DNA of 32,365 nt from Kiritimatiellia bacterium. GTDB taxonomy: Bacteria; Verrucomicrobiota; Kiritimatiellia; RFP12; UBA1067. The notes under the pieces are model-generated. The model ran no database searches, was not told the origin of the DNA, and saw nothing but the letters and a program-made list of their open reading frames with translations. Of this stretch, positions 1 to 22,390 are shown in pieces. The translations under genes were made by a program, and so were the position numbers. The stretch spans positions 1 to 32,365 of the forward strand of contig JAFRJH010000075.1 in assembly GCA_017432385.1 (NCBI GenBank), in the 5' to 3' direction. Each line of letters opens with the position of its first letter. Position 1 is the first letter of the stretch.

Positions 1-641
1 ACCCCGCCCGTCAGCTCTGGTGTGTCGCCCATCTGCACGCGCATGTAGCCCTCCATGCCCGTCACGTAGATCGACATGCCGTCGGCTTCCGGGACAATGC
101 GCTTCACCCTGGGTTGCTCGGCCCCCTCGGCCGGCTTTGCCGCGGCGCTGACGGACTTGCCGCGCGGCGCGGACAGGTCGGCCGGGGCGCCGCCCTGGCC
201 GGCGCCGATCGTGACGCCTTCCGCAACCTCGCCGTAGCCGTTCAGGACCTCGAGCCTGCCGTTCGCCATGCCGCGTGGCTTAGTCACGCCGTTCTCGGTC
301 ACCCGCGTGTCAAGCACATAGACCGCGTAGACGCCCTTCGCCAGTTCCTTCGCGAGGGTCGCCCTGTACTCGAAAGCGGCCCTCCAGCGTCCGCCCTTCG
401 CAACCGCCCCGACGTTCACGATCCGGTCGTTGGAGTCGACCGGCGTGCCGTCCGCCGCGAACCCCTCGAACCTGCCGTCCCGCGACCACACCAGCGCGTA
501 GCATTCCCCGTCCTGGACTACCTCGCCGCCAAGATATCGGTCGGGGCCTGCCGTGGACACGAGCACGGTGATGTTGTCGTCGCCGTCGGCAAACGCGCCG
601 AGAACGACGGACATTGCCGCCGCAAACACGAGTTTTCTCAT
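1..641 (-). CDS. Small exported protein of unknown function (3' end outside window)
   Basis: I do not recognise a named family. The product starts MRKLVFAAAMSVVLGAFADG, a short Sec signal peptide with likely cleavage after AFA. A beta-rich, acidic region follows (DDNITVLVSTAGPDRYLGG, then GECYALVWSRDGRFEGFAADG), and the reading stays open to the window edge (at least 213 residues). The start at 641 is supported by an AGGAGG site just upstream. It is also supported by an ATGA overlap with the stop of the preceding PEP-CTERM gene, which implies translational coupling. It is the third gene of an operon led by the giant surface protein, so it is probably an exported partner of that protein. That role is inference only. 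From memory, proteins with an FADG-type start and a CYALVW motif occur in other gut Kiritimatiellae; a search is needed to confirm this. Confidence 0.8.
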   Translation of the reverse strand, partial: MRKLVFAAAMSVVLGAFADGDDNITVLVSTAGPDRYLGGEVVQDGECYALVWSRDGRFEGFAADGTPVDSNDRIVNVGAVAKGGRWRAAFEYRATLAKELAKGVYAVYVLDTRVTENGVTKPRGMANGRLEVLNGYGEVAEGVTIGAGQGGAPADLSAPRGKSVSAAAKPAEGAEQPRVKRIVPEADGMSIYVTGMEGYMRVQMGDTPELTGG

Positions 642-1252
642 CTCCTGCCTCCTTCCTCACGACATCTCGACACCCTTCCGCGCCTCAGCGCAAGAAGCGC
701 CGCGCCTACAAGGACAAGCAACCCGGACGCCGGCTCGGGCACGGCGTAAGTCGTCGGATTCCACGGCGTCGCATAGAGCGGCTGGTATCCGCTGAAGACG
801 TCTATGTGGTGGTTCGCCACAAGGTCGACGTAGGAGGCGCTCTCCGACACCGCCAGCGTCGACCATGACCCGGACTCGTAGGCGCCGAGCTCGATCACAA
901 AGGCGTATTCCGGCGATCCGCCCGCGAAATCCGAAACGTCGGCGGCCCATGTCATCGGGACGTTCATCGAGTCAAGCCCGAAGCTGTCGCTCCCAGGGAT
1001 CTGCAGGCCGAGATAGCCTCCCGTCGACACTTCGCGGATCCGCGCGTGGGAGACACCAAGGTCCTTCGCCGTCGTCGTCCCGCCGTCGTTGGCGAGGTGG
1101 ACGATCACGCCTTCGAGCGAATCGAAGTCCGTCATGTCGCCGACCTGCCACAAGAGGACCGTCGTCTCCTCCGCGCACACGCCGTGCACAGGAAGCAGCG
1201 CCGCCATGCCTGCGAGCATCGTGGCGGCAAATCGCATCGCGGCCCCCTTCAT
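638..1252 (-). CDS. PEP-CTERM sorting domain protein
   Basis: A 204-residue exported protein. A Sec signal peptide (MRFAATMLAGMAALLPVHGVCA, from residue 6) is followed by a beta-rich body with no recognised enzyme motif. The C terminus carries VPEP at 171-174, a hydrophobic helix (GLLVLVGAALLAL) and an RRGR basic cluster. This is the PEP-CTERM signal, which in the known family is recognised by an exosortase after export. The tail after the basic cluster is longer than usual: its last codons (EEGGRR) also form the AGGAGG site of the next gene. The start at 1252 shares one base with the upstream stop (TGATG) and has an AGGAG 8 nt upstream. Residue 6 is an alternative start. Likely role: cell-envelope protein made with the giant surface protein. 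No exosortase gene is in the window. Confidence 0.88.
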   Translation of the reverse strand: MKGAAMRFAATMLAGMAALLPVHGVCAEETTVLLWQVGDMTDFDSLEGVIVHLANDGGTTTAKDLGVSHARIREVSTGGYLGLQIPGSDSFGLDSMNVPMTWAADVSDFAGGSPEYAFVIELGAYESGSWSTLAVSESASYVDLVANHHIDVFSGYQPLYATPWNPTTYAVPEPASGLLVLVGAALLALRRGRVSRCREEGGRR

Positions 1253-4200
1253 CAGTCGATCTCCTCCGCCGCCTTGACCGACACCGAGAAGGCCGGTCCG
1301 CCGGCACGGTAGTACCAGAAGCCCATGCCTGCCGGGATTTCGTGGTCCGTGGGCACGGCTACATCATACCGCTGCGTCTCCGGGTTCCAGGTCAGGGTCG
1401 GCAGCAGCCCGCCCCAGAGCCCCGCCCGGCCCATCCTCGGATACCACTTGAGGCGGACGGACATCCTGCCGTCGGCATCCGCCGGAATCTCTATCTCGTC
1501 GCCCTCCCCCGGGTTGCCGCCCCAGTCGATGTCGTTGATCCTTAGCGCGCCAAGGTTCGGGTTGGCGACCATTGTCGCCCCGACGACGGCCTTGCCGGCG
1601 GCGTCCGAGGAGGAACCCGCGATCTGGACCGTCACCGGCTCGCCGGAGAACTGGCCGACAATCGTGAACGGCCTGCCGTGGTCCGAACGCGTCACCCAGA
1701 CCGCGCGCCCCGGCGCAAGCGGGCACTTCTCCGCGCCGGCGACCTCGACCGTCGATCCGTCGGCCCTCACCGCCGTGTACGGAACGAAGGTCCCGCCCTC
1801 CATCTTCCAGACCTTGAACGCGCCGTCCTCTCGCAGGCGGATGACGTCCCCGTCCTTCACGAAGCCGGAACCGACATATTCCTCGACCTTGACCGGCTCC
1901 TTCAGCGCGGGATCCCTCGGTAGCTCGACGAACGGAACGGCCGCCATCGTGTGCGTCGCCGTGCTCGCGATGCGCAGCACGCCGACGATGTTCGTGGTCG
2001 GTATCTCGTTCGTGATCGCGAGGTTCGAGTCGGGGATGATGAGCGTGACTATGCGGTAGTACCCCGTCACGTCGTCCGAATCCAGCGGGAACGTCGGGAT
2101 CTTATCGGCCGTTATGCCGCCGAGGCGCGTCCAGGAGCCGCCCGTGCGCTTGCGCAGCTCGTGCAGGACGGCGTAGCCGAGGTTTTCCGTCCGCACGGGA
2201 TCCTCGGAAAGCCTGAACGTCAGGCTGGTGCCGGCCGCGTCCACCGCCGTGCTGAGCAGCAGCTCGTTCGTCGCCGTGCCGGTCACGAGGTTCTCCCAGC
2301 GGCGCAGGCCGTTGGGGTCCATCTTGTTCATGGTCTCTGCGACGGTCGCGGCGGAGAGCTCGGACCGGCTGTCGAAACCCAGTTCGTCGAGCATCTCGTC
2401 CGAGACAGGCACGGAGACCGACACGCCGGATCCGGTAGCGCGCTGTATCAGGTCCAGCGCCTCAATCGTGAGCGTCCCCGCCTCGTAGGCGACCGCGTAG
2501 TTGCCCTGGGCGGCATTGCCTGCCGCCGTGATCGCGTAGGTTCCGGGCGCCTCGCCGGCGGCTCGCGACAGCGCGTACTCAACCGTGTCGCCGCCGAAAA
2601 GCCCCGTCACCGTGGCCGTCAGCGACGGATCGGCCCTGTTCAATATCTTCACCTTGTTGTCGGCCTTCACCGTAACGGGCGCGGGCGTGATCTCGAGGTA
2701 GCCGTTCGCCGCCACGACGACCTCGGAAACCGACATGCCTTCCGGCACGGTCACGATCACATGGTTCGCGCTGATGGCCATGTCGCTGCGCCCGACATCC
2801 TTGCGCCAGGCCATCTGGTAGTCTGGCGGGATGGACACGTAGACACTGTCGCTCGTGATGACCTCGTGGCTAGTCGCATGCGTGATGACGTAGGTGTAGC
2901 CCTGCACGGACTGCTCCTTGCCGTTGTAGACCACGTTCGTCGTGTTCCCCGTGATGGTCACGACAATCGGCGTCGGCTCGATCGAGAGCGCGCCAGGGGT
3001 CACCTTGATCATGTATTCGTTCGTGACATCCTCGTCCTCTGAATCGCGCACCGTGAAGCGCACGTTCTCGACGCGCCCCGTGTAGCTGCCGACCGCCGTG
3101 CCGTGCGGCGCGACGTAGCGCTCGACGGTCAGGACATGCCCGCCCTTCAGGCCCGTGACGGTGTAGGCGTCTTCGTCGATCGCGGAACCCGTGCCGGCCA
3201 CGGTCGAGATCGCGTAGCCGTGCTGCTCCTCGCCCGTGAATATCACGGACATGTCCTTCATCGCGATCTCGATGTCGGTCTTGTGCGTGTTCGTGAATGC
3301 GACCACGGTCGTCGCGCCCGCCTCCACCGTGCCGGCCGCGTTCGCGGGGACGGTGGCGATGTACTTCGCCAGCCCGGCCTCCTCGACCTTGTAGCTCGCG
3401 CCCGCGGGGAGCCCGGGGAGCGTCACGCTGCCGCCGTCCGCCAGGGAGAATGTAAACACCTTGCCGTAGGGCCCGAGGCGTACGCCCGGCGGCGGCGTGT
3501 AGCTGTCCTTGCCCACGACCGTCTCGCCGATAGTGACGATGAACGGGAACGTGTCGCCCTCCTCGCCGTCCACCACCGTCTTCGTCACCGTCACGGAGCC
3601 TGTCTTGCGCGTGTTCGTGAAGACCGCCGTGTCCAGCGGCGTGTAGTCGTAGTAGCTCGGGTTGTCCGACGAGCGCGGCAGGTCGCGCAGTGACGAGATC
3701 GTGTACGTGCGCTGGCCAAGGTCGGACTTGCCGCTGTGGCCCGCCGACTGCGAGAGCGGATCGGGGCCGATGGCGGTCAGCACGAAGTTGGAATTCTCGC
3801 CTTCCTGGATCGTCACCGTTTCGTAGCGGTAGGCCGCGTTGTACGTGACGACCTGGGTAATGGTGCGCGTCTGGGTGTAGTTCCTCCCCGAGGCGCCCGA
3901 GTCGGATTCGTCCGCACCCTTGCCGGTGACCGTGTTCTCGCGCGCGTCGGTCTGCGGGTCTGCGCGGTCGTAGAAGATCGTGAACGGATGGCGCTCCCCG
4001 TCCTTCAGGACCACCGTCTCGGGGCTTCTGAGCTGCCCGAACAAGTTGGTGTCGACGCCCAGCTGCCGACCGGTCACGTTCGTGCTGACGCCGGTCAGGA
4101 CGGGATCGGTCCACTGACCTGCGCTCCAGTTGCCGTAGGTGAAGAAGTACCACGGGCGAGTCCACTCCCTTGTCTGCGTGTACGTGTGCGTCACCACGTA

Positions 4201-7200
4201 CTCGATGTTCGTCGAGTGCGCGGAATAGGTGGCGGTGAAAGCAAACGGAACGTCCCTGTCCTCTTCGGAGCCCACGACCGACTTCTGGAGCGTCACATGC
4301 ACCGGGATGCGCTTGTAGAACGCGACGTAGACCGCCGTGTCCGCGGCGTCGTACTGGTTCCATATCTGCGAGTAGCGCGACCACATGAGCGATTCGCGGG
4401 CGAACCTGAGGTACGAACCGCCGCTCGGACGTCCGCGGACGTTCGTGATCGTGCGGTATTCGCACTCCGAGAAGTTCTCCGCCGTCACGACGGCGCTCCG
4501 CGAGCCGACGCCGATCGTCGTGTGGCCGTACTGCTCCCGGACTTCCGGCGCGAGGAATCCGACAACGCCCAGGGAATCGCTGTAGCGCAGCGTCGCGGCC
4601 AGGTCGTTCGTCGCGGCGCCGAGGCCGGATATCGTCCTGAGGGGCTTTTGCGGACCCCAGGCGGCTCCGCCGTCAACAGTTGCATTGTCGGCGGTGATCT
4701 CGTCCACGCCGCCGTCGGGGTGGTGGATGAAGTAGCGCACAGGCACGTCCGCCGTCGTAGCGCACGCGGTCCTCGTGAACCTCACCTGCACCGGGGACGG
4801 GCTGACCTTCATCGTGCCAGCGACCATGTAGTGCTCGCCGGGATAGACTGACTGGACGACGTCGGGGACCGCCTCCTGCCCATCGACCGAAGGCTGGATG
4901 CGCGTGACCACGAGCTTGCTGCCCTCGGCGTAGCCGCACGTCCCGCCGACGGTGAAGTCCTTGTCCGCCGCGTCCGGCAGGACGAGGCGAAGCGTCTCGC
5001 CTGCCGCAAGGTCGAACGTCGCCGTCCCTTCCGAGAATGCCGTGAACGCCTCGCGGCCGTACGTGCCGGTGACGTTGTTCACGCGGAAAAGCTCGCCGTC
5101 CACCCACGACGGGATGTAGAGCTGCACGCCGGACAGGTCGTAGCCCGTGTCGTTCACGAATTCAACGTATATCTGCGGCTCCCAGACGGCGTAGAGCGCG
5201 TTCTCGGCGTCCGTCTTCGTGTCCACGCCGATAGTCTGCTCAGCAGTGAATGTCGGAATCAGCGAATTGACGTGGCTGAGCGGATCCCAGCCGAGGAGGA
5301 AGTAGCCGTTGTCGTGGGCGAACATGTCGGAATAGTCCGCGAGGTTCACGGAGAAGTTGTTCTGCTGCCCGGCGAACCAGACGCCCTGGTTGAGGCCGTT
5401 CACGGAACCAACCGTGCCGTCGGTGTAGGTGCCCGTTCGCCCTTCATGCGGGGGCAGCGCGGCGCCCCCGGCAAGCCCGGCGTTCTCGTTGGAGTCGAGC
5501 ACGAAGTCGGTCACGTTCGGGATGTGCCGAGACGAACCGTCGCCGATGTACTTGTACACCGCGCGGAAGTGGATGACGTTGTCGGGGTCTGCGTGCGCGG
5601 GCTTGACGAGGTAAGGGTCGCCCGGAGAACGGACATTGGTCAGCGGGATGTTGTTGTTGTACGTGTCGATGACCTGCCAGCCCTCCCACACCCACTCTTT
5701 CGGGTCGTAGTTCGTCGGGGTCTTCGCCAAGGTCGTCTCGGCGTCGGCGACATAGCCGTCTTCGATGTTGCCGGTGGCGTGGCGCAACGGGTCGTAGATG
5801 ACTTCGTTGTCCTGCCACCCGTCCGGGTCGATCGACTCGTATTTGAGCGTGTAGATGCCCGTCCGCCGCCAGATGGCGCGGATCGTGATCGGCCTGTTCG
5901 GCGGCTCGCCGAAGCTGAACGGGTCGACCGCCAGGGTGCCGTCCGCCAGCACCTCAAACCACCCCATGAACGCGTATGCGCCGGGATCGTAGGTGTAGCG
6001 GTTCTCGGGGTTGGAGACCTCGTTGGACGTCGCCTGCGCGATGTCGGTCGTGTAGAATGCCTTGCGCGAAATGTTGTGGATGAAGCTCGGCGAATTCGTG
6101 TCCGTCACGTGCTTGTCGCCCAGCGGATCCCAGAGGTCGTGGTGGTAGTAGTAGGTGCCATTGTGCATGTCGAGGCGGTAGTCGCGAGTAGGATGGTACT
6201 CCTTTATCGTCTCGTTCTTGTCCGGATCAACGTAGAACCACGTGGAGTCGTTGCCGTGCAGCTCGCCGCCGTTCGGATCGATGATGACCTTGTACTGGAG
6301 CGGCGACCACTTCGCGTAGATGATCTTCTTTGCGTTGGGCATCGTGGCGGTGAAGTCAAACGGCACTGTCAGCGATGCGTCTTCGTACCATCCCGAGAAC
6401 GTGCGGTTCGTAACGTCGCACCCGCTCCAGTTCAGGTTGGTGTAGGCGATATCGTACTCGGCGAGCGGCTTTTCGAAGGCCACTTCATTGACGGTGCGCA
6501 GCGTGTGCTCCCTGGTGTCGTCGTTATACTTGTAGATCAGCTCGTGCGCTTTGCGCTTGAAGCGGATGTCAAGAGTGGTGTAACTTGAAACCTGGCTCCC
6601 ATAGTACTTTGTCGATTCGTTATAGGCGCCTACACTTTGGTAATCCCCACCATTTTTGCTGTACTGGTACGCCTCGAAACCATTGTACTTGTCGGAGATA
6701 TTGAAACTACCGGAACCACTTGGTACGGAGTTCGCAAGAATCCAAGAGCCGTCAAGCGCCTCCTTATAGAAATTTATCGTCGTACTGGTTGAAGATGGGT
6801 TTTCACCGTAAAACGTCTCGTCACTGCCGCTCGTAGGCAGAAATGCATCGAGGAACGTTGTCCTGGTACGCGACGAAGAACTTGAAGGCTTGTCATACCA
6901 CCACTGCGTTGAATCCCACGTGTATCCGTTGTCCGCCAACGTCTGTCCATAAAGCCCCGTCATGGTTCTCGAGTCATCAATAGTCTGCGAAGTCGTTACG
7001 CTGCGCGTATATCGATTCCCGCTGTAAGCATTCCTGTAGTTCTGATCCTTATACCAGCCCTTGTTCTGGCCACTGCTCTTGTAATACAGCTGATAGTAGT
7101 CCGTTCCATTGTCAGTGCCATATTGAGTACCAGAGTTGCCCGTCGTCCTTGTGTACGTGTAGGTCGACTGGGCCACACAGAAACTTAGCGTGATGAGGTC

Positions 7201-9150
7201 GCGGTCGTAGTAGACGTTGATGACGGTGGAGGCGTCGGGGGCCACGGTCTCATCCTTGCACTCCCAACGTCCATAGTGGAAGCCGGTGAAATCCTCGTCT
7301 GTGAGGTTGTCCTTGCCGGATATGGTCGTGAGGTTCGAGCGGTCGGGGTTGGTTCCCGAAGCCGCCGTTCCGGAGAAGCTCTTGATCAGGTTCTCGGAGA
7401 TCTGCGTCGTGGAGGGAACCACGGGGCTCGTATAGTGCGTGACGTAGTAGTACTTCTTCTCGGCGTCCGCCGCGTCCTTCGAATCCGTCACGCGCTGCTG
7501 CCAGATGATCACGCGGTAGGTGGAGTCCGAGTTCGCCGCCCAGGTTCCGTAGAGCGTCACGTCCTCGTTCATGCGAATGTTGCCTTGCGCATCCGTGTAG
7601 AAGGCCACGGCGCCGGTCAACGGGTTCGTGATGGTCTTGTTGGGGATGAAGTTGCCGTTCGCGTCGGTGACCATATCGCCGAACGTGACCTCCTTGGTGG
7701 CTTCGTCCTTGAACCCGGCGCGCCAGCCCGTGAAGTTGTAGCCCTTGCGCTCGCCGCTCGTCTCCACGGTGCTGAAGTTGCTGGACGAGCGGACGAACAC
7801 CGAGCCGACGTACTTCGCATGAGAGCCCCCGGCGTTCGAGTCGAAGTGGAGGAAGTGCGCGGAGACGTAGTAGGGATACAGCGGTATGACGCTGCCGCCG
7901 TTGGCCTCGAAAAGCGCGTCGTCGACGGTGATGTACTGATCCTGCGGCTTGCCGGCCCCCGAATAGACCGGCAGCTGCCTGAGCTGTCCGTCGACGCCAA
8001 GATACTCCCATCCGCAGAAATACTCGTCGCGGCTGTTCTTGAGCGCCGCCTGCACGTCGCTCACCTTGAGCGTCGCCACGCCCGTTTCGTCGTTGATGGC
8101 GACGAGCTTGCGCTTGATGATGTGCGCGGCGGCCCCCTGCTCGGTTTCGGTCTTGGCGTTCTCGTTGAACTGGAGAAAGCGCGCGTGTTCGTAGAGCGGC
8201 ACCACGTAGTAGTCCCAGTCCTCCGTCTCCGTCACCGAAACGGCGTTGGTGAACGTCATGCGCCTGTCCGTCGCGCCGACGGGCCACACGAACTGGAAGT
8301 ATTCGTTCGTCGGGTCGAGCTTGCTCTCTACGGCGCTCGCGGAGCGCACGTGGTTGCTGACCACGTACCACCCCTCGAACATGCTCTTGATCAAGCCGTA
8401 CTCGTCGAGGATGTCAAGCGGGATCGGCGGCTCCTTGAGCATGTCGCCGTCCTTGACGATCTGGACGTTCACGACGTCGTTGGTCTCGTCGCGGTAGATG
8501 TACGGAAGCGCGGAGCTGCGCCCGCTCTCCGTTGTCGGATGGCCGTAGAAGTGGTAGAACCGGCGAGGCTCGACCAGGTTGCCGGACTTGTCGACGATGG
8601 AGTACACGGAGAAACCCGTGGCCGAGAACCAGAACGCGGTGACGGCAGTCTGCCCGGCGTTGAAGGTGAAGCCGTACCGCGACGACGGCAGCTCCTCGAC
8701 CGTGCCGTCGTCCGCAAGGTGGACCACGCCGAGACTGGCCGCGGCGGAAACCGGCACCGGCTCCGCAAGCTCCACGTCGACCCGCACCGGCTCGCCGGTC
8801 CTGGGCTGCCACTTGCGCCCTCCGGCGTTTACGGACACGTCGTACATCGCCAGGACGCGCGGCGACGGCGCGCTGGCTCCGCCTCTGCCGCCTCGGCGGC
8901 TCCTGGCCAGGGCGGCGGCGACCCTGCTGCTGGTCTCCATGGAACGCGTCCGGGAAAAGGAAGCCCTGGCGTCACCAGGGAATCGGGCATCGCCCGCGTC
9001 CAGCGCAATGTGTCCATGGGATCCGCGGATACGCAATAGGCCGACATGCCCACGTCCGTCAGCGGGGGAATCACGCCCGACAGCCAAAGCCCCGGCCGAA
9101 CCCAGGCCGAGGAACAGATACGCCGCCAGCTTGCATAGGCATCGTCGCAT
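1252..9150 (-). CDS. Giant exported surface protein with InlB-type B repeats, Cna-B-like and MBG domains
   Basis: A 2632-residue protein, probably a cell-surface adhesin or extracellular fibre. A Sec signal peptide (MRRCLCKLAAYLFLGLGSAGALA) opens it. About five InlB/Listeria-Bacteroides B-repeat-like units follow, each ending in a YGTW, YAKW, RAIW, RAVY or YAVW signature, at roughly 430-535, 880-945, 945-1095, 1097-1210 and 1230-1320. Between the first two sits a Tyr/Ser/Thr-rich module (about 661-861) containing YGQTLADNGYTW. Two Cna-B/SpaA-like units begin near 1616 (VTLQKSVVGSEED) and 1849 (VTVTKTVVDGEEGD). MBG-type domains span about 2069-2240, and a C-terminal domain closes it. There is no LPXTG or PEP-CTERM anchor; the co-transcribed small protein has one. 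Oddities: lower GC across residues 661-861, and an N-terminal stretch (about 24-90) whose codon usage suits another frame. Function is inferred from architecture only. Confidence 0.9.
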   Translation of the reverse strand: MRRCLCKLAAYLFLGLGSAGALAVGRDSPADGRGHVGLLRIRGSHGHIALDAGDARFPGDARASFSRTRSMETSSRVAAALARSRRGGRGGASAPSPRVLAMYDVSVNAGGRKWQPRTGEPVRVDVELAEPVPVSAAASLGVVHLADDGTVEELPSSRYGFTFNAGQTAVTAFWFSATGFSVYSIVDKSGNLVEPRRFYHFYGHPTTESGRSSALPYIYRDETNDVVNVQIVKDGDMLKEPPIPLDILDEYGLIKSMFEGWYVVSNHVRSASAVESKLDPTNEYFQFVWPVGATDRRMTFTNAVSVTETEDWDYYVVPLYEHARFLQFNENAKTETEQGAAAHIIKRKLVAINDETGVATLKVSDVQAALKNSRDEYFCGWEYLGVDGQLRQLPVYSGAGKPQDQYITVDDALFEANGGSVIPLYPYYVSAHFLHFDSNAGGSHAKYVGSVFVRSSSNFSTVETSGERKGYNFTGWRAGFKDEATKEVTFGDMVTDANGNFIPNKTITNPLTGAVAFYTDAQGNIRMNEDVTLYGTWAANSDSTYRVIIWQQRVTDSKDAADAEKKYYYVTHYTSPVVPSTTQISENLIKSFSGTAASGTNPDRSNLTTISGKDNLTDEDFTGFHYGRWECKDETVAPDASTVINVYYDRDLITLSFCVAQSTYTYTRTTGNSGTQYGTDNGTDYYQLYYKSSGQNKGWYKDQNYRNAYSGNRYTRSVTTSQTIDDSRTMTGLYGQTLADNGYTWDSTQWWYDKPSSSSSRTRTTFLDAFLPTSGSDETFYGENPSSTSTTINFYKEALDGSWILANSVPSGSGSFNISDKYNGFEAYQYSKNGGDYQSVGAYNESTKYYGSQVSSYTTLDIRFKRKAHELIYKYNDDTREHTLRTVNEVAFEKPLAEYDIAYTNLNWSGCDVTNRTFSGWYEDASLTVPFDFTATMPNAKKIIYAKWSPLQYKVIIDPNGGELHGNDSTWFYVDPDKNETIKEYHPTRDYRLDMHNGTYYYHHDLWDPLGDKHVTDTNSPSFIHNISRKAFYTTDIAQATSNEVSNPENRYTYDPGAYAFMGWFEVLADGTLAVDPFSFGEPPNRPITIRAIWRRTGIYTLKYESIDPDGWQDNEVIYDPLRHATGNIEDGYVADAETTLAKTPTNYDPKEWVWEGWQVIDTYNNNIPLTNVRSPGDPYLVKPAHADPDNVIHFRAVYKYIGDGSSRHIPNVTDFVLDSNENAGLAGGAALPPHEGRTGTYTDGTVGSVNGLNQGVWFAGQQNNFSVNLADYSDMFAHDNGYFLLGWDPLSHVNSLIPTFTAEQTIGVDTKTDAENALYAVWEPQIYVEFVNDTGYDLSGVQLYIPSWVDGELFRVNNVTGTYGREAFTAFSEGTATFDLAAGETLRLVLPDAADKDFTVGGTCGYAEGSKLVVTRIQPSVDGQEAVPDVVQSVYPGEHYMVAGTMKVSPSPVQVRFTRTACATTADVPVRYFIHHPDGGVDEITADNATVDGGAAWGPQKPLRTISGLGAATNDLAATLRYSDSLGVVGFLAPEVREQYGHTTIGVGSRSAVVTAENFSECEYRTITNVRGRPSGGSYLRFARESLMWSRYSQIWNQYDAADTAVYVAFYKRIPVHVTLQKSVVGSEEDRDVPFAFTATYSAHSTNIEYVVTHTYTQTREWTRPWYFFTYGNWSAGQWTDPVLTGVSTNVTGRQLGVDTNLFGQLRSPETVVLKDGERHPFTIFYDRADPQTDARENTVTGKGADESDSGASGRNYTQTRTITQVVTYNAAYRYETVTIQEGENSNFVLTAIGPDPLSQSAGHSGKSDLGQRTYTISSLRDLPRSSDNPSYYDYTPLDTAVFTNTRKTGSVTVTKTVVDGEEGDTFPFIVTIGETVVGKDSYTPPPGVRLGPYGKVFTFSLADGGSVTLPGLPAGASYKVEEAGLAKYIATVPANAAGTVEAGATTVVAFTNTHKTDIEIAMKDMSVIFTGEEQHGYAISTVAGTGSAIDEDAYTVTGLKGGHVLTVERYVAPHGTAVGSYTGRVENVRFTVRDSEDEDVTNEYMIKVTPGALSIEPTPIVVTITGNTTNVVYNGKEQSVQGYTYVITHATSHEVITSDSVYVSIPPDYQMAWRKDVGRSDMAISANHVIVTVPEGMSVSEVVVAANGYLEITPAPVTVKADNKVKILNRADPSLTATVTGLFGGDTVEYALSRAAGEAPGTYAITAAGNAAQGNYAVAYEAGTLTIEALDLIQRATGSGVSVSVPVSDEMLDELGFDSRSELSAATVAETMNKMDPNGLRRWENLVTGTATNELLLSTAVDAAGTSLTFRLSEDPVRTENLGYAVLHELRKRTGGSWTRLGGITADKIPTFPLDSDDVTGYYRIVTLIIPDSNLAITNEIPTTNIVGVLRIASTATHTMAAVPFVELPRDPALKEPVKVEEYVGSGFVKDGDVIRLREDGAFKVWKMEGGTFVPYTAVRADGSTVEVAGAEKCPLAPGRAVWVTRSDHGRPFTIVGQFSGEPVTVQIAGSSSDAAGKAVVGATMVANPNLGALRINDIDWGGNPGEGDEIEIPADADGRMSVRLKWYPRMGRAGLWGGLLPTLTWNPETQRYDVAVPTDHEIPAGMGFWYYRAGGPAFSVSVKAAEEID

Positions 9151-9284: not shown

Positions 9285-10394
9285 CTAAAGCCCGATGTCG
9301 CCGAAGCCCTGCCAGACGTTCCTGCCGCTGTAGTCCCGCGGCTCGATCTCGCCGCGGAGGACCCTGAGCGCCGGAATCGCCAGCGCCTCCTGCTCCATCT
9401 CGCCGGGATAGACCTCGATCGGCGCGATGAAGCCGCAGCGCGTCCGGATTCCGTCGACGATGTCGGCGAATCGGACGAGCCCCCCCGTGAGCAGGATCGC
9501 GTCCACCTTCCCGCAGAGGACCGCCGACATCTCGCCGATCATCTTGCAGATCTGGTAGATCATAGTGTTCCAGACAAGCGTCGCCTTGCGGTCGCCCTTC
9601 TCGACGAGCGAGTGTATCGTGTCGGAGTTGGACGTGCCGAAGAGGTCGACGAATCCGCCCGCCCTCGAGCACCTGAGGCGCACGTCCGCGACGGAGTGCG
9701 CCTCGATGTAGTCGAGAAGCTGCAGCACCGGCACCGAGCCGATGCGCGTCGGTGTGAACGCGCCCTCGCCGTCCGCGCCCATGTTGCCGTCGACCATCCG
9801 TCCGCGCTCGTGCGCGGAAACGGTGATGCCGCCGTCGATGTGCGCGACGATGAAGTTGCAGTCTTCGTACTTGCGGCCGAGCTTCGCGGCGTGGAACTCG
9901 GCGACGGCCTTCTGGTTGAGGACGTGCGAGTGGGAGACGCGGTAGACGCCCTTGATGCCGGTGAGGCGCGCGAGGTCGCAGTACTCGTCGACGTTCGTAG
10001 GGTTGAGCGTGAACGCGGGCCTGCCGTACTCCTGCGAGAACGACCACGCGAGCATGACGCCGAGCTTCGCGGGATGCTCCGAGCCGCCGACGGCGGCGAC
10101 CGTGTCGTCGTAGAGCTTCCGTCCGATGCGCGTGACGCCGCCCGGCTGGGTGCAGGCGCTCCCGCCGCGCCCGACGAACGCGTCGATGGACGATGGGTCG
10201 ACGCCCTCGGACTTCAGCATGTCCATGATGACGCCGCGGCGGAACGGCACCTGGTCGTTAACGTGCGGGAACTTCAGCAGGACGGACGCGTCATGGAAGA
10301 GGCTCTTCTCGAAAACCGACGTCTCGTCCTCGAACAGGCTCACCTTCGTCGAGGTCGAGCCCGGATTTATCACAAGTATCCTATATGGTTTCAT
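9285..10394 (-). CDS. buk: Butyrate kinase (acetokinase family)
   Basis: Predicted to interconvert butyryl phosphate (or a branched-chain acyl phosphate) and the free acid with ATP formation, in the cytoplasm. The product is 369 residues against about 355 for the family. Visible motifs are the phosphate-binding start ILVINPGSTSTK (6-17), VGRGG near 74-78, HIDGGITVSAH (185-195) and DGEGAFTPTRIGS (208-220). Most butyrate kinases, as I recall them, read HLGGGISVGAH at the second site, so this copy is somewhat divergent. The start at 10394 (MKPYRIL) fits the family N terminus. A second ATG at 10406 lies only 1 nt from a GGAGG, too close for normal use, so the start is not certain. The gene overlaps the upstream membrane protein gene and ends the V-ATPase operon. 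No phosphotransbutyrylase gene (ptb) is nearby. Confidence 0.88.
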   Translation of the reverse strand: MKPYRILVINPGSTSTKVSLFEDETSVFEKSLFHDASVLLKFPHVNDQVPFRRGVIMDMLKSEGVDPSSIDAFVGRGGSACTQPGGVTRIGRKLYDDTVAAVGGSEHPAKLGVMLAWSFSQEYGRPAFTLNPTNVDEYCDLARLTGIKGVYRVSHSHVLNQKAVAEFHAAKLGRKYEDCNFIVAHIDGGITVSAHERGRMVDGNMGADGEGAFTPTRIGSVPVLQLLDYIEAHSVADVRLRCSRAGGFVDLFGTSNSDTIHSLVEKGDRKATLVWNTMIYQICKMIGEMSAVLCGKVDAILLTGGLVRFADIVDGIRTRCGFIAPIEVYPGEMEQEALAIPALRVLRGEIEPRDYSGRNVWQGFGDIGL

Positions 10395-12030
10395 TTTGAT
10401 GGACATGCCTCCAAAAGCCGCCGGCCAACGCCGAAAGCGCGGCAAGCGTTCCGATTAGCGAAAGAATGCCCAGCGCAAGCGTCGTCGCCTGCGGCCCGGG
10501 AAGGCCTTCCGGACGCGACGCCACAGGCCGCTCCCTGGGGATCTCGATCAGCGCGGCGTTCTGGTAGAAGCCGATGACCCTCGCCCGCATCTGGTCGAGC
10601 TGCGCCCTCCCGCGCGGGTCCTGCAGCATGCGTCCGTCGACAAACTGCATGTCCGCATCCGCCCGATGTGGCGCACAGTAGAGCCGGTCGTTGCCTACAA
10701 GTTCGATGACGCCGAGAAGGACGACGACTGCCGCTCCGATCGTCTTGACACGGACGCTGGCCCATTTGCCTTCCACCTGCATCCAGCCCCAGATACCATA
10801 CCCAGCCAAGACGCAAACGCAGAACTCCGTGAGATGATGCCACTTTACCGGGGCGCGAAGGTAGTCGCCAAACGGCAGCGCGTAGACAATTCGATAGACC
10901 GGCTCGCAGAAACGTCCCATCGAGAAAAGCCAGAAGACAACTGCGGAAATGGCGAAGAAGAAGATTGTACTGGCGGCCGGCGCTTTAAACCGCTTGAAGA
11001 TCGCCCAAAAGACGCAGGCAAAGGCGAGAATGCAAGTGGCAATGCCGACATAGAGCGAATGCTGGCGGTAGTTGCCCTGCGTTGCGCCGAGCGGACGGCC
11101 GAGGCGGCCGGTGTATGGGCGGATCCCGCTGCGACGCTTCTGCCCGATCGCGAGCGTATACGGGCAGCTCGTGTCGCCTTCGACGCCGGCGTGCCAGAAC
11201 TCCTTTGTGGCTTCTGGCGGCATCGACCAGTTGGTCGTGAATATCCAGCGCTTCTCGGCGTCGTCCTTGGCGGCGTTCGCGCCGAGGGTCTGGCCCTCCT
11301 CGATCTGCTTGTCTCGTCCGGCGAGGTCGTTCACGAACGCGCTCCTGAAGCTCGCGCCGCCGATTGCGAGAAGCGCGGCTAGCGCAATCGCCGAGCCCTT
11401 GGCCCATTTTGCAAGCGCGACGCGCCGCGCTCCGCGCGCCGTTCCGCGCAGGACGACAACCAGCCTGAACACGAAATACACGCCCGAGAACGCCGAAAAG
11501 AGGAGCCAGAGGTCGGGCTGGCGCATCGAGCCCCATGCAAGGCACGCGCCGAGGAGAAGCCAGTGGCGCGGCCTCCCCTTCTCGAGCGCGCGGTCGACGA
11601 GCCCGAACACGAAGACTCCGTAGGTCATCCACTGGAACCAGCCGAGGTGCCCGGCGGAGAAGAGCGTGAACCAGTATCCGGAGAATGCCAAAAGAAGCCC
11701 CGCGCCGTAAGCCGCGACGCGGGGAAGACCCCTTCCAAGGAGGAAATAGGCGAGGCCGAGCGCCGACATGTATGCGGCGAACGCATACTGGAACTCCGTC
11801 CATATGTACGGGCTCCCTATCCAGTTCATCGCCTCGGCCGGGGCGAACTTCCCGCTCTCCAGCCAGCCGCACAGCCATTCGCGGAACCAGTGCACCGGAT
11901 AGGAGGTCGGGCAGTCCGGCATGACGGGGGCCATGTCCGTCGACCACGTCCCCCAGAAAACGAAGGCGGCGCACACGGCGAAGACCGCCGTGAACGCCGC
12001 GAACCATCCCCATTTAGGGCTCAGGCGCAT
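10381..12030 (-). CDS. Large polytopic membrane protein, YfhO-like in appearance
   Basis: A 549-residue integral membrane protein with about 10-12 hydrophobic segments. The first is at 9-27 (WFAAFTAVFAVCAAFVFWG), and others include AYMSALGLAYFLLG, YGAGLLLAFSGYWFTLFSAG and TIGAAVVVLLGVIELVG. The long non-cytoplasmic loop after the first helix and the overall layout resemble YfhO-type or GT-C-fold proteins that act on lipid-linked sugars. I see no motif that decides this, so the substrate is unknown. The ATG follows the TAA of the V-ATPase K gene with no gap (TAAATG), so it is probably translated by coupling. It overlaps butyrate kinase downstream. Placement inside an energy operon may be only transcriptional convenience. 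Confidence 0.8.
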   Translation of the reverse strand: MRLSPKWGWFAAFTAVFAVCAAFVFWGTWSTDMAPVMPDCPTSYPVHWFREWLCGWLESGKFAPAEAMNWIGSPYIWTEFQYAFAAYMSALGLAYFLLGRGLPRVAAYGAGLLLAFSGYWFTLFSAGHLGWFQWMTYGVFVFGLVDRALEKGRPRHWLLLGACLAWGSMRQPDLWLLFSAFSGVYFVFRLVVVLRGTARGARRVALAKWAKGSAIALAALLAIGGASFRSAFVNDLAGRDKQIEEGQTLGANAAKDDAEKRWIFTTNWSMPPEATKEFWHAGVEGDTSCPYTLAIGQKRRSGIRPYTGRLGRPLGATQGNYRQHSLYVGIATCILAFACVFWAIFKRFKAPAASTIFFFAISAVVFWLFSMGRFCEPVYRIVYALPFGDYLRAPVKWHHLTEFCVCVLAGYGIWGWMQVEGKWASVRVKTIGAAVVVLLGVIELVGNDRLYCAPHRADADMQFVDGRMLQDPRGRAQLDQMRARVIGFYQNAALIEIPRERPVASRPEGLPGPQATTLALGILSLIGTLAALSALAGGFWRHVHQNETI

Positions 12031-12495
12031 TTACGCGATCTTGCCGATGGCGAGATAGGCGAACACCAGCGCGAAGATTGCGACAGTCTCGACGATGCCG
12101 AGCGCGGCGAGGTAGTTGGAGAAGCCCTGGTTCGTCTCGGCCTGCGCGTCGCACGCGGCCGCGCCGGCGCGGCCCTGGAAGAGCGCCGAAAGGCCGATGG
12201 CGAGGCCGGCGAAGATGCCGGCGACAAGAAGCGGAACGCCGAGCCCGGCGACCTTGTCGGGCGTCTTGAGGAAGTCGAGCATCTTGTTCATCACGATCAT
12301 CCCGTACAGGACCTGGGTTATCGGCGCGCCGACGAACGTAAGCAGAAGGAACGGAGCCGGCTTGTTCGCGGCATAGCACTTCTTCCACGCGCCGACGGCG
12401 GCGGCCGAGGCAAAGCCGGTGCCGAACGCACTTCCCGCGCCCGCGAGGCCCATGCAGGCTATAGCGCCTGCGACGATCATTGCAGCATCACTCAT
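12031..12495 (-). CDS. atpK: V/A-type ATP synthase subunit K (membrane rotor ring)
   Basis: A 154-residue proteolipid with four transmembrane helices arranged as two hairpins (Gly/Ala-rich GAGSAFGTGFASAAAVG in the first, GIFAGLAIGLSALFQGRAG in the second). It forms the rotating ion-carrying ring. The carboxylate is Glu136 in LGIVETVAIFALVF. Thr60-Gln61 (APITQVLYG) and Gln107 (LFQGRAG) align by eye with the sodium ligands Thr64, Gln65 and Gln110 of Enterococcus hirae NtpK, and Glu136 with Glu139. This suggests sodium coupling, which is inference from alignment. The first hairpin has no carboxylate, as in V-type K subunits. A GGGAGC site precedes the ATG, 10 nt after the subunit I stop. Confidence 0.95.
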   Translation of the reverse strand: MSDAAMIVAGAIACMGLAGAGSAFGTGFASAAAVGAWKKCYAANKPAPFLLLTFVGAPITQVLYGMIVMNKMLDFLKTPDKVAGLGVPLLVAGIFAGLAIGLSALFQGRAGAAACDAQAETNQGFSNYLAALGIVETVAIFALVFAYLAIGKIA

Positions 12496-12505
12496 TGTTT
12501 GCTCC

Positions 12506-14146
12506 CTAGTGTTTTTTGAACGGATTGAAGGCGTACCCAGACCAGGAGACGCCCTTGTGGTTTGAGAATTCGAGGGTGTTCAGGCGCACGGCGTGCACCA
12601 GAATCGAAAGCGCGGCCATCGCCAGGTTGAGGGCATGCCCCGCGACGAGTATAAGCACCGTTCCGACGGCCAGCAGCATGTTCAGCCAGAGCGGCTTGTC
12701 GCCCGAAAGGAGGCCAAGGGCCATCGAATTGAAGTTCTCCGCGACCTTGACGGACGCAAGGCCGACGGCGAAGAGCCTGACGTAGCTGATGATGTCGCCG
12801 AGCGACGACATGATGTTGAGCGGAAGCATGCCGAGGGAGATTCCGTTCGTCTTGAGGTCCTTCGGCTTGACCGAGAACAGAAACACCGCAACAAGCGAAA
12901 CGCCGAACACCCAAGTCATGAACGACGGTATCGACGCGAATATCCCGACGAGCGAATTGGTCACGAAATACATGAAGAGCAGAATTCCCGCCCAGCCGAA
13001 TTCCGCCACAGCCGTCGAGTCCGGCAGCCGGCAGACGCCGTTCCAGATTCGCGCCAGCATTAGATGCGAGGCCCCGATTGTGAAGCAGACGAGCATGATG
13101 TTCTTGTACGTGACGTCGCCGAGCCACTTCACCGTCGGCCAGTCTGCGCCCGCGGGGATGCCCGCGCCGAACCAGGTATTGGACAGGACGCCCCATGCAA
13201 TCGTCGCAAGGGAGAACACCGTGAGCAGCGTGAACCAGCTCTTCGGAAGCTTCTTCCTCATCGCGAGCGTGCCCGCGAGGAAGATCGCGCCGTACGCGCC
13301 GTCGCCGACGAGCATCGCGAAGAAGAGCGAGAAGTAGCACATGAACGGAACGGACACGTCCGCCTCCGTGTACGCCGGGGCGATGCCGAGGCCGTCGAAA
13401 AGCGCCTTCATCGGACGGAACATCCTGGGCGGCTCGACCAGGGTAGGCGGAGCCTCGCCGTCGGCGGGGTCGCGCAGAAGGACGCCCCATCCCTCCTCGT
13501 GCGCTGCGGACGCGAGATCTCCCGTGCGCATCTCGGGAATCCAGCCCGAGACGAAGGCCACGGCGCCGCTGCTCTCCATCAGCTCCCTGGCCGCGGCAAA
13601 CTCCATCCGGTCCGCGAGCTTCGGATATCGCCGGAGGATATGGCCCTCGTCGCACTCCGCGAGCTTCATGTCGTCGATCGCGATCCTGTTCCGCACGCGC
13701 GCGAGCTTCTCCTGCATCTTGGAAAGCCTCATCGCGGGAAGCGTCTCGGGGATGTCCGCGACGCCGCGGAGACCCTCCACCTCGGCGAGGAGCTTCTTCG
13801 CGAGCTCTGGATCGAAGTCGCCGTAGGGCTCGTAGAGGCGTATTTCGCGGGAAAGATCCTCTGCGGCGGACTTGAGCGTGTCGCGGTCGCGGTCCACGGC
13901 CAGGACCTCGGCGACTTCGCGCGGCCTCAGCTCAAGCGACTCCGCGTCCATGCCCTCGCGCGCCTTGCGGATCGTCCTGACGGCCCTCTCGGCGTCGACT
14001 ATGTCGCCCTTCGCCGCGGCGAACTCCGCCCCCTGCGCGCCGGAAAGGTCGAGGTGCACAGCGCCGAGCGCGCGCAGGCGCTCGAGCGTGCGGTCGCGGT
14101 CGGCGGCAACGCAGACGAGGTCGACGTGCTTCATCGGCGCGATCAT
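12506..14146 (-). CDS. atpI: V/A-type ATP synthase subunit I (stator a-subunit)
   Basis: A 546-residue protein, shorter than the roughly 600-660 usual for the family. The N-terminal 250 residues are cytoplasmic and charged, with helical stator-arm-like segments (ERAVRTIRKAREG, MQEKLARVRNRI). The C-terminal half has about seven membrane helices. The channel arginines are visible in SYVRLFAVGLAS (Arg457) and VHAVRLNTLEFSNHKG (Arg521), and the protein ends in the typical GYAFNPFKKH. It carries ions between the membrane and the K ring. The start at 14146 was chosen because ATGA overlaps the subunit D stop and GAGGGGGTGG lies just upstream. Longer readings only run antisense or out of frame through subunit D. 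Coupled to D upstream and K downstream. Confidence 0.94.
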   Translation of the reverse strand: MIAPMKHVDLVCVAADRDRTLERLRALGAVHLDLSGAQGAEFAAAKGDIVDAERAVRTIRKAREGMDAESLELRPREVAEVLAVDRDRDTLKSAAEDLSREIRLYEPYGDFDPELAKKLLAEVEGLRGVADIPETLPAMRLSKMQEKLARVRNRIAIDDMKLAECDEGHILRRYPKLADRMEFAAARELMESSGAVAFVSGWIPEMRTGDLASAAHEEGWGVLLRDPADGEAPPTLVEPPRMFRPMKALFDGLGIAPAYTEADVSVPFMCYFSLFFAMLVGDGAYGAIFLAGTLAMRKKLPKSWFTLLTVFSLATIAWGVLSNTWFGAGIPAGADWPTVKWLGDVTYKNIMLVCFTIGASHLMLARIWNGVCRLPDSTAVAEFGWAGILLFMYFVTNSLVGIFASIPSFMTWVFGVSLVAVFLFSVKPKDLKTNGISLGMLPLNIMSSLGDIISYVRLFAVGLASVKVAENFNSMALGLLSGDKPLWLNMLLAVGTVLILVAGHALNLAMAALSILVHAVRLNTLEFSNHKGVSWSGYAFNPFKKH

Positions 14147-14757
14147 GCGGCCACCCCCTCTCCGGACTCGGGAACCCTCGACTTCGCGATCTTGCCGCGC
14201 GTGACGGCCGCGGTCTGCTCGTCGCCGAGCGCGATCTTGATGACGCGTATCGCCTCCCTGCAGGCCGGGATCTTCACCTTCTCGAAGAGGTTCACGCGCT
14301 GGGAGGTCTGCTGGAGCTCCGCCGCGACGAGCCTGCGCTGCTCCTCGAACACCGCGCGCTCGCACTGGAGCGAAAGTATCTCCTTCGCCGCCTCCACCGC
14401 CCCGTCGACCCAGGCGGGCGTCGCCCAGAGGTCGATCTCCCCGACGTCGGTCTCTATCGACTCGAATGTCGGTATCTGGACGCCGGCGATGTTGGCGGAG
14501 CCGGTGTTGACCTTCCTGACCGTGACCAGCCCCTCGAGCTGCCCGTCGTCCGTCGCGAGAAGCCCGACCCAGCGCTCAAGCCCCGCCCGCACCGCGCGTT
14601 CCTTCGCCGAGACCTCCTCGGCCTTCGCGACGATGCCGGCGATCTCGCCCTGAAGCTGCTGCTTCTTGAGCTGAAGCATCGGCAGAAAGCGCTGGAAACG
14701 CTTGAGAGCGTCCGTCTGCGCCTTCAGTTCTGTCTTCGTGAGCTTGATCTTGGCCAT
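14143..14757 (-). CDS. atpD: V/A-type ATP synthase subunit D (central stalk)
   Basis: A 204-residue, mostly helical protein: an N-terminal coiled-coil half (MAKIKLTKTELKAQTDALKR, then QLKKQQLQGEI) and a C-terminal one (AVFEEQRRLVAAELQQTSQRVN, with NLFEKVKIPACREAIRVIKI). The FEKVKIP-x-IRxIKIxLGDEQ signature is typical of subunit D, the rotor shaft joining the A/B head to the K ring. A frame extending upstream from 15024 was rejected: the family N terminus begins here and a full promoter lies directly before it. It is the first gene of the D-I-K-membrane protein-buk operon. The A, B, E, C and F subunits are not in this window and must be encoded elsewhere. Confidence 0.94.
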   Translation of the reverse strand: MAKIKLTKTELKAQTDALKRFQRFLPMLQLKKQQLQGEIAGIVAKAEEVSAKERAVRAGLERWVGLLATDDGQLEGLVTVRKVNTGSANIAGVQIPTFESIETDVGEIDLWATPAWVDGAVEAAKEILSLQCERAVFEEQRRLVAAELQQTSQRVNLFEKVKIPACREAIRVIKIALGDEQTAAVTRGKIAKSRVPESGEGVAA

Positions 14758-20689: not shown

Positions 20690-22390
20690 TCACCCGACGG
20701 TAGCGAGCACCTGTCCCTTCGTCACCGGCCTGCCATGCTCGACGAGGAACGTTATCTTCCCGCCGGCGGGCGCCTTGATCGGATTGAAAAGCTTCATCGC
20801 CTCCACGACGCAGACCGCGTCGCCGGCCTTCACCGCCGCGCCGTCCGCCGCCATCTGCGGCTTCCCCGGCGCGTCGCTGCGGTAGAACGTGCCGTTCAGC
20901 GGCGCAAGCACAGGGGCGCCCCTGACTGGCGCCTGCTGGCCTCCGGCAGCCTGCGCCGCCGGGCTTTCGGCCTTCGCCTTAGGGCCTTCGGCCGTCCCCG
21001 CCGTCGCCTCCGAGTCCGCCGGGATCGGCCCGCCCTCCCTGCGCCACTTGAAGTAGCCGAGCGCCACCTCGGGGAAAAGCGCGTAGGACAGGATGTCCTC
21101 CTCGGCCCTGATCGTGTTCGGCGGCAGCTCCGCCGCGGCCGCGACGAGCCCGGGCTTGAGCAGGTCCGCCGGACGGCACGTGATCGGCTTGAGGCCGCCG
21201 CAGAGCCTCTTCCTGAGCTTCGGGTCGATCGGCGCAGGCGTACGGCCGTAGTAGCCCGCCGCATAGCGCTTCGTCTCGTCCGTCACCATCGAATAGCGCT
21301 TCCCGGAGAGGACGTTCAGCACCGACTGCACGCCGACGATCTGGGAGGTCGGCGTGACGAGCGGCGGATACCCCATGTCGGCGCGCGTCCTCGGGAGCTC
21401 CTCCAGCACCTCGGGGAGGCGGTCGAGGGCGTCCTGCTGGGCAAGCTGCGAACGGAGGTTCGAGATCATGCCGCCGGGGATCGCGTGGACGAGGACACCC
21501 GCGTCCACGGGCTCCACGCCCTTGGCGGTCGCCGCAGGCTGGCGCTTCGCCTTGAGGCCCTTGAAGTATTCGTTGATCGCGGTCAGCGCGCCGGTGTCGA
21601 GACCCGTGTCGAACCCGCAGCTCTCGAGGATGACCTTGACGGACTCCGTCGGCGGCTGGGACGAGAACGACGAAAGCGTCGATATCGCGCAGTCGAAGCA
21701 ACCCGCCCCGGCCTCCGCCGCCGCCAGATACATCGCCGCCGCCATCCCGCTCGTCATGTGGGAGTGAATCTGGATCGGCATCTCCGGCATCGCCTTCACA
21801 AGGGCGGACACGAGTTCGCGCGCGGCTCCCGGCGTGAGTATGCCCGCCATGTCCTTGATCGCGAGGGAGTCGACGCCCATCGCCTCCTGCTCCTTCGCGA
21901 GCTCGACGTACTTCCCGACCGTGTGGACGGGCGAGGTCGTGTAGCAGATCGTGCCCTGGGCGTGGCCGCCGTACTTCTTCACGGACCTGATCGCCTGCTC
22001 GAGGTTGCGGGGGTCGTTGAGCGCGTCGAAGACGCGGAAGATGTCCATCCCGTTCTCGCACGCGAGCGCGACGAAGCGGTCGACGACATCGTCCGGATAG
22101 TGCCTGTAGCCGAGGATGTTCTGGCCCCTGAGAAGCATCTGGAGCGGAGTCTTCCTGCACACCTTCTTGATCTGCCTGAGGCGCTCCCACGGATTCTCGC
22201 GGAGGAAGCGCATGCACACGTCGAACGTCGCGCCGCCCCAGCATTCGAGGGAGTAGTACCCGGCGCCGTCGATCGTCTCGGCGATCTTGAGTATGTCGTC
22301 CGTGCGCATGCGCGTCGCCCAGAGCGACTGGTGCGCGTCGCGCAGCGTAGTGTCGGTTATCCGTATCTGTCTTGACTTGGTCTTGCTCAT
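20690..22390 (-). CDS. oadA: Biotin-dependent carboxyltransferase: oxaloacetate decarboxylase alpha / pyruvate carboxylase subunit B
   Basis: A 566-residue protein moving a carboxyl group between biotin and pyruvate/oxaloacetate. The TIM-barrel carboxyltransferase domain opens with ITDTTLRDAHQS (metal ligand Asp18). It shows Lys179 (AIKDMAG), the usual carbamylated lysine, and His209/His211 (IHSHMTSG) as metal ligands. After an Ala/Pro-rich linker (about 460-490) comes a biotinyl domain with VEAMKLFNP, biotin on Lys533. The fold does not tell oxaloacetate decarboxylase alpha from pyruvate carboxylase subunit B or a transcarboxylase 5S-type subunit. Neither biotin carboxylase nor the OadB/OadG membrane subunits are in the window. 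First gene of an operon with glgA and glgB; no Shine-Dalgarno site. Confidence 0.92.
   Translation of the reverse strand: MSKTKSRQIRITDTTLRDAHQSLWATRMRTDDILKIAETIDGAGYYSLECWGGATFDVCMRFLRENPWERLRQIKKVCRKTPLQMLLRGQNILGYRHYPDDVVDRFVALACENGMDIFRVFDALNDPRNLEQAIRSVKKYGGHAQGTICYTTSPVHTVGKYVELAKEQEAMGVDSLAIKDMAGILTPGAARELVSALVKAMPEMPIQIHSHMTSGMAAAMYLAAAEAGAGCFDCAISTLSSFSSQPPTESVKVILESCGFDTGLDTGALTAINEYFKGLKAKRQPAATAKGVEPVDAGVLVHAIPGGMISNLRSQLAQQDALDRLPEVLEELPRTRADMGYPPLVTPTSQIVGVQSVLNVLSGKRYSMVTDETKRYAAGYYGRTPAPIDPKLRKRLCGGLKPITCRPADLLKPGLVAAAAELPPNTIRAEEDILSYALFPEVALGYFKWRREGGPIPADSEATAGTAEGPKAKAESPAAQAAGGQQAPVRGAPVLAPLNGTFYRSDAPGKPQMAADGAAVKAGDAVCVVEAMKLFNPIKAPAGGKITFLVEHGRPVTKGQVLATVG

Follow-up and report, generated by a model that had tools for sequence, protein, structure and literature searches.

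An AT-rich and probably exchangeable cassette in a large surface protein of a Kiritimatiellia bacterium

The surface-protein gene and its low-GC segment

The window, a stretch of 32,365 nucleotides from a Kiritimatiellia bacterium, contains a gene for a giant surface protein with Pfam and NCBIfam matches to MBG_2, DUF7601, and InlB-type repeats. Judging from this domain context, which also bears on adhesive function and ligand, the host protein is probably an adhesin. The genes that flank it are those of ordinary metabolism and encode, all on the minus strand, a butyrate kinase (9285-10445), V-type ATP synthase subunits K and I (12031-14365), and a pyruvate/oxaloacetate carboxylase-like protein (20690-22390). 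Adjoining the giant gene, a 204-amino-acid protein (638-1252, minus strand) has a PEP-CTERM sorting signal (18.6 bits against a cut-off of 16); none was found in the giant protein itself. This signal points to a Gram-negative, Verrucomicrobiota-like lineage, and on that basis the window's group and the Atopobiaceae discussed below are treated as different phyla. An Rfam search of the window gave no match. The features discussed below are as follows.

1252-9150, minus strand: gene for the giant surface protein that hosts the cassette, 2632 amino acids (open frame, translation, Pfam/NCBIfam matches)
7201-7533, minus strand: upstream scaffold domain, residues 540-650, MUB-like beta-grasp (collinear in homologs; weak structural match)
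7201-7224, minus strand: VINVYYDR anchor, the conserved end of the upstream scaffold domain (anchor position)
6553-7200, minus strand: probably exchangeable cassette, 216 residues (651-866), made up of insert and type-A core (conserved VYYDR and RFxR; paralog swap in genome G129)
6967-7200, minus strand: segment with the Tyr-rich insert, residues 651-728, motif GTQYG...WYK...GNRYT (length variation among homologs; alignment A6; model)
6553-6966, minus strand: type-A core, residues 729-866, TMTGLYG...DKYNGF...DIRFKR (core tree; DNA identity to homolog L049)
6571-7134, minus strand: best-fit low-GC3 segment, residues 673-860 (change-point fit)
6301-6402, minus strand: InlB B-repeat (List_Bact_rpt), immediately downstream of the cassette (TIGR02543; model match to 2y5p)

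A first-pass annotation had described a discrete low-GC module in this gene. Its G/C counts for 6601-6660 (25/60) and 7021-7080 (29/60) were reproduced exactly; the comparison stretch at 5401-5460 has 42 of 60 and not 41, one base that leaves the contrast intact. Across 6570-7170, G/C is 295/601 (49%), against about 63 to 66% in most of the remaining gene. In a change-point fit, GC3 was 0.55 within residues 673 to 860 and 0.89 elsewhere in the gene, with a log-likelihood gain of 56, whereas 20 codon permutations gave at most 8.9. Codon usage from mechanically picked open reading frames was dropped because wrong-frame ORFs contaminate such a set in high-GC DNA, and the gene's own flanks replaced it as the codon reference. 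After correction for amino acid identity, for which the gene's own codon use was the reference, the segment had a z of -14.8, and the lowest of 200 flank windows had -3.7. The richness in Tyr, Ser, Thr, and Asn contributes to the drop in total GC, but by this z value amino acid composition does not explain the dip. The GC3 shift affects almost all amino acids (Ser, 0.47 versus 0.95; Asn, 0.50 versus 0.93; Pro, 0.00 from four codons versus 0.93). Together, the change-point and z bear out a compositionally distinct module, in which the annotated strings YGQTLADNGYTW and DKYNGFEAYQYSK occupy residues 734 to 745 and 820 to 832.

In the gene, the order is MUB-like domain, cassette (residues 651 to 866), and InlB B-repeat, in one collinear unit. 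The segment had been placed between InlB-type repeats, which is correct on one side. Downstream, both profile (TIGR02543, 30.5 bits; cut-off, 20.95) and fold identify an InlB B-repeat, model residues 327 to 413 matching 2y5p with Z 9.3 and an rmsd of 1.9 over 72 aligned residues. Upstream, a MUB-like beta-grasp domain fits better, on a weak match of model residues 3 to 113 to the MUB repeat 3i57 (Z 5.8, 73 aligned, rmsd 3.3); the MucBP profile gave no match.

The cassette segment itself had no Pfam match at E-values up to 10, PF09479 included, so that it does not classify as an InlB B-repeat by profile. When Pfam was run on 12 homologous units, it returned only the repeats Flg_new and Flg_new_2 and three sub-threshold singletons. 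AlphaFold models (pLDDT 75.6 and 77.1) were mostly beta. The cassette model matched 2y5p with Z 4.3 and its best chain of any kind with 5.4, the latter among weak ubiquitin-like or beta-grasp matches, and its second half matched a MUB structure weakly (Z 4.4). On these weak matches, the cassette is modeled as two beta-grasp-like domains, with the Tyr-rich insert predicted to form extra strands in the beta1-beta2 hairpin of the first. A BFVD fold search with the cassette alone gave nothing significant, and matches in a PDB sequence search were confined to the B-repeat part.

Homologs and recurrence of the GC3 dip

We searched for homologs with the segment and with alignments built from it. The first found was L005, from an Atopobiaceae genome (UBA1367, Actinomycetota); others came from the window's genus, family, and phylum and from the Atopobiaceae and their class, the Coriobacteriia. 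The aligned homologs share one layout: a domain ending in GFH...VINVYYDR, the segment, RFxR, and InlB repeats. Because the flanks are homologous to and collinear with those of proteins from another phylum, the segment is an integral cassette and not a piece added to a native gene, and the term "inserted," used in the first-pass annotation, is misleading. Within the window's genus, the search found the module in 2 of 61 genomes, many of which are incomplete. A tblastn search with the module against plasmids and phages found nothing, viral contigs held no relative of it, and a literature search found no paper on it. No Firmicutes match turned up either, in searches whose coverage of gut Firmicutes was not systematic. 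Directly 3' of the Atopobiaceae homolog lies an ORF (L005:3429-3995, plus strand) that looks signal peptidase I-like by eye; such ORFs are common in Gram-positive surface-protein or pilin clusters.

For 21 homologous genes, we compared cassette GC3 with that of the same gene's flanks after amino acid correction. The cassette was lower in 19, with z below -3 in 16 (Wilcoxon p 7e-6, a value that overstates independence, as the genes are related). The dip spans hosts as different as L025 (gene GC3, 0.97; z, -21.4) and L032 (gene GC3, 0.53; z, -4.1), and no clear dip was seen in five genes (L024, L029, L030, L100, and L107). Because it recurs in most homologs of both groups, the GC3 dip cannot date an arrival in any one genome; low GC is a recurrent trait of the cassette and not a date of entry. 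The state of the window genome (355 contigs, 83% complete, 3.5% contamination) might suggest assembly chimerism or contamination. However, the frame is open across 2632 codons, and the independent genomes G027, G488, and G610 share the arrangement and a similar dip in the insert, which leaves an artifact of this kind very improbable.

The segment had also been read as a possible recent acquisition from another phylum, and a recent import of the whole of it from a low-GC gut Firmicute or another phylum would fit a GC3 far under the gene's level and core relatives at 53% in the Atopobiaceae. The comparison with L049, from the same family, argues otherwise. Over cassette bases 244 to 553, the window core is 69.9% identical in DNA to that of L049, and the flanks are 69.7% and 73.9% identical; the two cores pair in the core tree (94/88). 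As core and flanks resemble L049 equally, the core was inherited from at least a family-level ancestor, and by these identities the segment is no closer to a foreign lineage than its flanks allow. Given also that the dip recurs in homologs whose hosts are GC-rich, we consider import of the whole segment improbable, and "recent" is not supported for the core. What survives of the claim is cross-phylum exchange at some time, from the core held in common with the Atopobiaceae and the tree conflict with the flanks described below. The window insert, which has no DNA match, may be younger than the core and may be the only part exchanged since. Core GC3 is 0.84 in L049 and 0.57 in the window; therefore, the two lineages have drifted differently since.

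Exchange of core and insert between genes

In genome G129, the paralogs L025 and L044 are 90.6% identical in DNA along an upstream flank of 1592 bp and 88.9% along a downstream flank of at least 1035 bp, whereas their interiors (roughly 620 and 467 bp) are unrelated and give no full-length match. One break point lies directly behind VYYDR and the other at the strand that follows RFxR, which is also how the window cassette is framed. Near-identical flanks around an unrelated interior, as in a mosaic gene, were thus seen in this homolog pair and not in the window gene itself. Additional scaffold copies exist in G129, with a recognizable close cassette in two only. The dip differs in strength between the two paralogs (z of -21.4 versus -3.9) and so goes with the cassette rather than with position.

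The trees of interior and flanks were also in conflict. In the core tree, types A and B each had 100/100 support and each contained both phyla, and grouping the cores of the window's phylum was rejected (p-AU 1e-34). For the upstream scaffold, a grouping by phylum was not rejected (0.20), but type A as a group (0.0019) and the clade that the window core forms with L005, L024, and L025 (0.010) both were. The downstream scaffold rejected all three: type A (0.00013), the window's core clade (0.002), and phylum (0.0044). Several of these groupings were picked after the core tree had been viewed, and their p-values are somewhat optimistic. Given this caveat, the AU tests still place interior and flanks on conflicting trees. 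The scaffold itself may also have moved, since on its downstream part the window's phylum does not form a coherent group. The core of the window is 53% identical to that of L005 and the flanks 26 to 31%, but within the Coriobacteriia (L005, L024, and L025) the core is 47 to 51% identical and the flanks 52 to 63%. Since the core exceeds the flanks across phyla but not within the Coriobacteriia, a uniformly slow core cannot explain both. At the VINVYYDR codons, as many as 23 bases are the same in the two groups. A search that did not go into detail found no mobile element or dedicated recombinase.

The insert segment ranges from about 14 to 280 residues among homologs and is nearly absent (13 to 24 residues) in several genes. 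The window insert is closest to that of L087 (66%), the core of which is type B. In L085, from the window's family, the insert is 62 to 65% identical to the Coriobacteriia inserts of L024 and L005 and has a GC3 of 0.48 against 0.93 in the gene flank, whereas L050 is the best-scoring partner for its core (53%) and scaffold (52%). At the level of sequence, these pairings indicate that the Tyr-rich insert shuffles separately from the core. Taken together, the homologous genes of the two phyla show a conserved scaffold with core types A and B and the inner insert in independent combinations.

Expanded and relocated inserts were also seen. In L089 and L090 (genomes G438 and G611, of the window's family), tandem copies of a YYIRQGTSGNWYQI-like unit lengthen the insert to roughly 280 residues, and L144 (genome G216) has two tandem insert units within a single gene. 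An insert of similar, Tyr-rich sequence, GTQYGLVDGEYVQLTR...GTRYNGTRYT, occurs in a VWA-domain surface protein (L043:1537-1719, plus strand; genome G218), where it follows a DRSGSM motif, immediately precedes the region that matches the VWA profile, and coincides with a local drop in GC3. The insert is therefore also found outside the InlB-type scaffold.

Origin and meaning of the AT-rich cassette

We think it fairly probable that this part of the large surface protein is a two-domain, beta-grasp-like cassette that can be exchanged within a string-of-beads stalk, shaped by exchange and, here, with an inherited core. Cassettes would be swapped by recombination anchored on the conserved flanks, and such swapping would vary an exposed binding or antigenic surface. 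In the window genome, the core would have come from the family-level ancestor. Two sources, alone or combined, could account for the low GC: exchange within a pool of higher AT content, with amelioration still incomplete, and drift toward AT in segments that turn over quickly. Against exchange as the source of the dip stands its direction: 19 of 21 cassettes are lower than their flanks, which is not expected if hosts of every GC content exchanged at random.

For this almost-always-downward dip, the main rival is intrinsic AT drift, in which GC3 falls toward mutational equilibrium without import in a fast-evolving exposed region where selection on codons is weak or gene conversion is scarce. 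Cassette GC3 does follow flank GC3 (r 0.71, slope 0.85; 21 genes), and the inherited window core has nevertheless come to differ from its sister in L049. There is also a precedent in Salmonella SPI-1, where AT-richness outlasts acquisition and is maintained by excess GC-to-AT substitution, with H-NS control as the proposed cause (PMC7232297). However, five of the 21 carriers have no clear dip, two paralogs of one genome are strongly unlike, and drift leaves the conflict between core and scaffold trees unaccounted for. Site-specific codon selection, a related possibility, is opposed by the AT-ending codons of the window, whose positions do not coincide with those of the homologs beyond chance. 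As a complete account, we consider intrinsic drift or a codon effect rather unlikely. Slightly more doubtful is an extension of the exchange reading in which scaffold, core, and a Tyr-rich hairpin of about 45 residues would move independently across phyla in nested tiers, guided by conserved GC-rich anchor codons and keeping an AT-rich signature against nearly every host.

An exchangeable cassette has parallels in known systems. The InlB B-repeat, or Listeria-Bacteroides repeat (PF09479, TIGR02543), directly follows it, and the cassette domains are modeled with the same general beta-grasp-like arrangement; unlike that repeat, the cassette lacks a Pfam match, contains an insert rich in Tyr, and occurs with either of two core types. 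The weak matches of the upstream domain and the second cassette half (Z 5.8 and 4.4) recall MUB/MucBP mucus-binding repeats, although upstream domain and cassette lack a MucBP profile match and the likeness is one of predicted fold. Mosaic surface proteins with exchanged variable domains are a general phenomenon, and conserved flanks, unrelated interiors, and tree conflict are shared with them; here, in contrast, the exchange would run between phyla and in nested tiers, with a cassette that is AT-rich against most hosts. As in SPI-1, lasting AT-richness does not date an arrival (PMC7232297), although a whole island is concerned there and a 650-bp segment within one gene here.

The locus is thus a worked case in which a within-gene GC anomaly would be taken for a recent import across phyla, whereas comparison reveals that the cassette looks AT-rich in most of its hosts. 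It adds a putative adhesin module outside Pfam coverage, one for which the data indicate exchange across two phyla of bacteria, and it makes testable the general question of why exchangeable surface segments remain AT-richer than their hosts.
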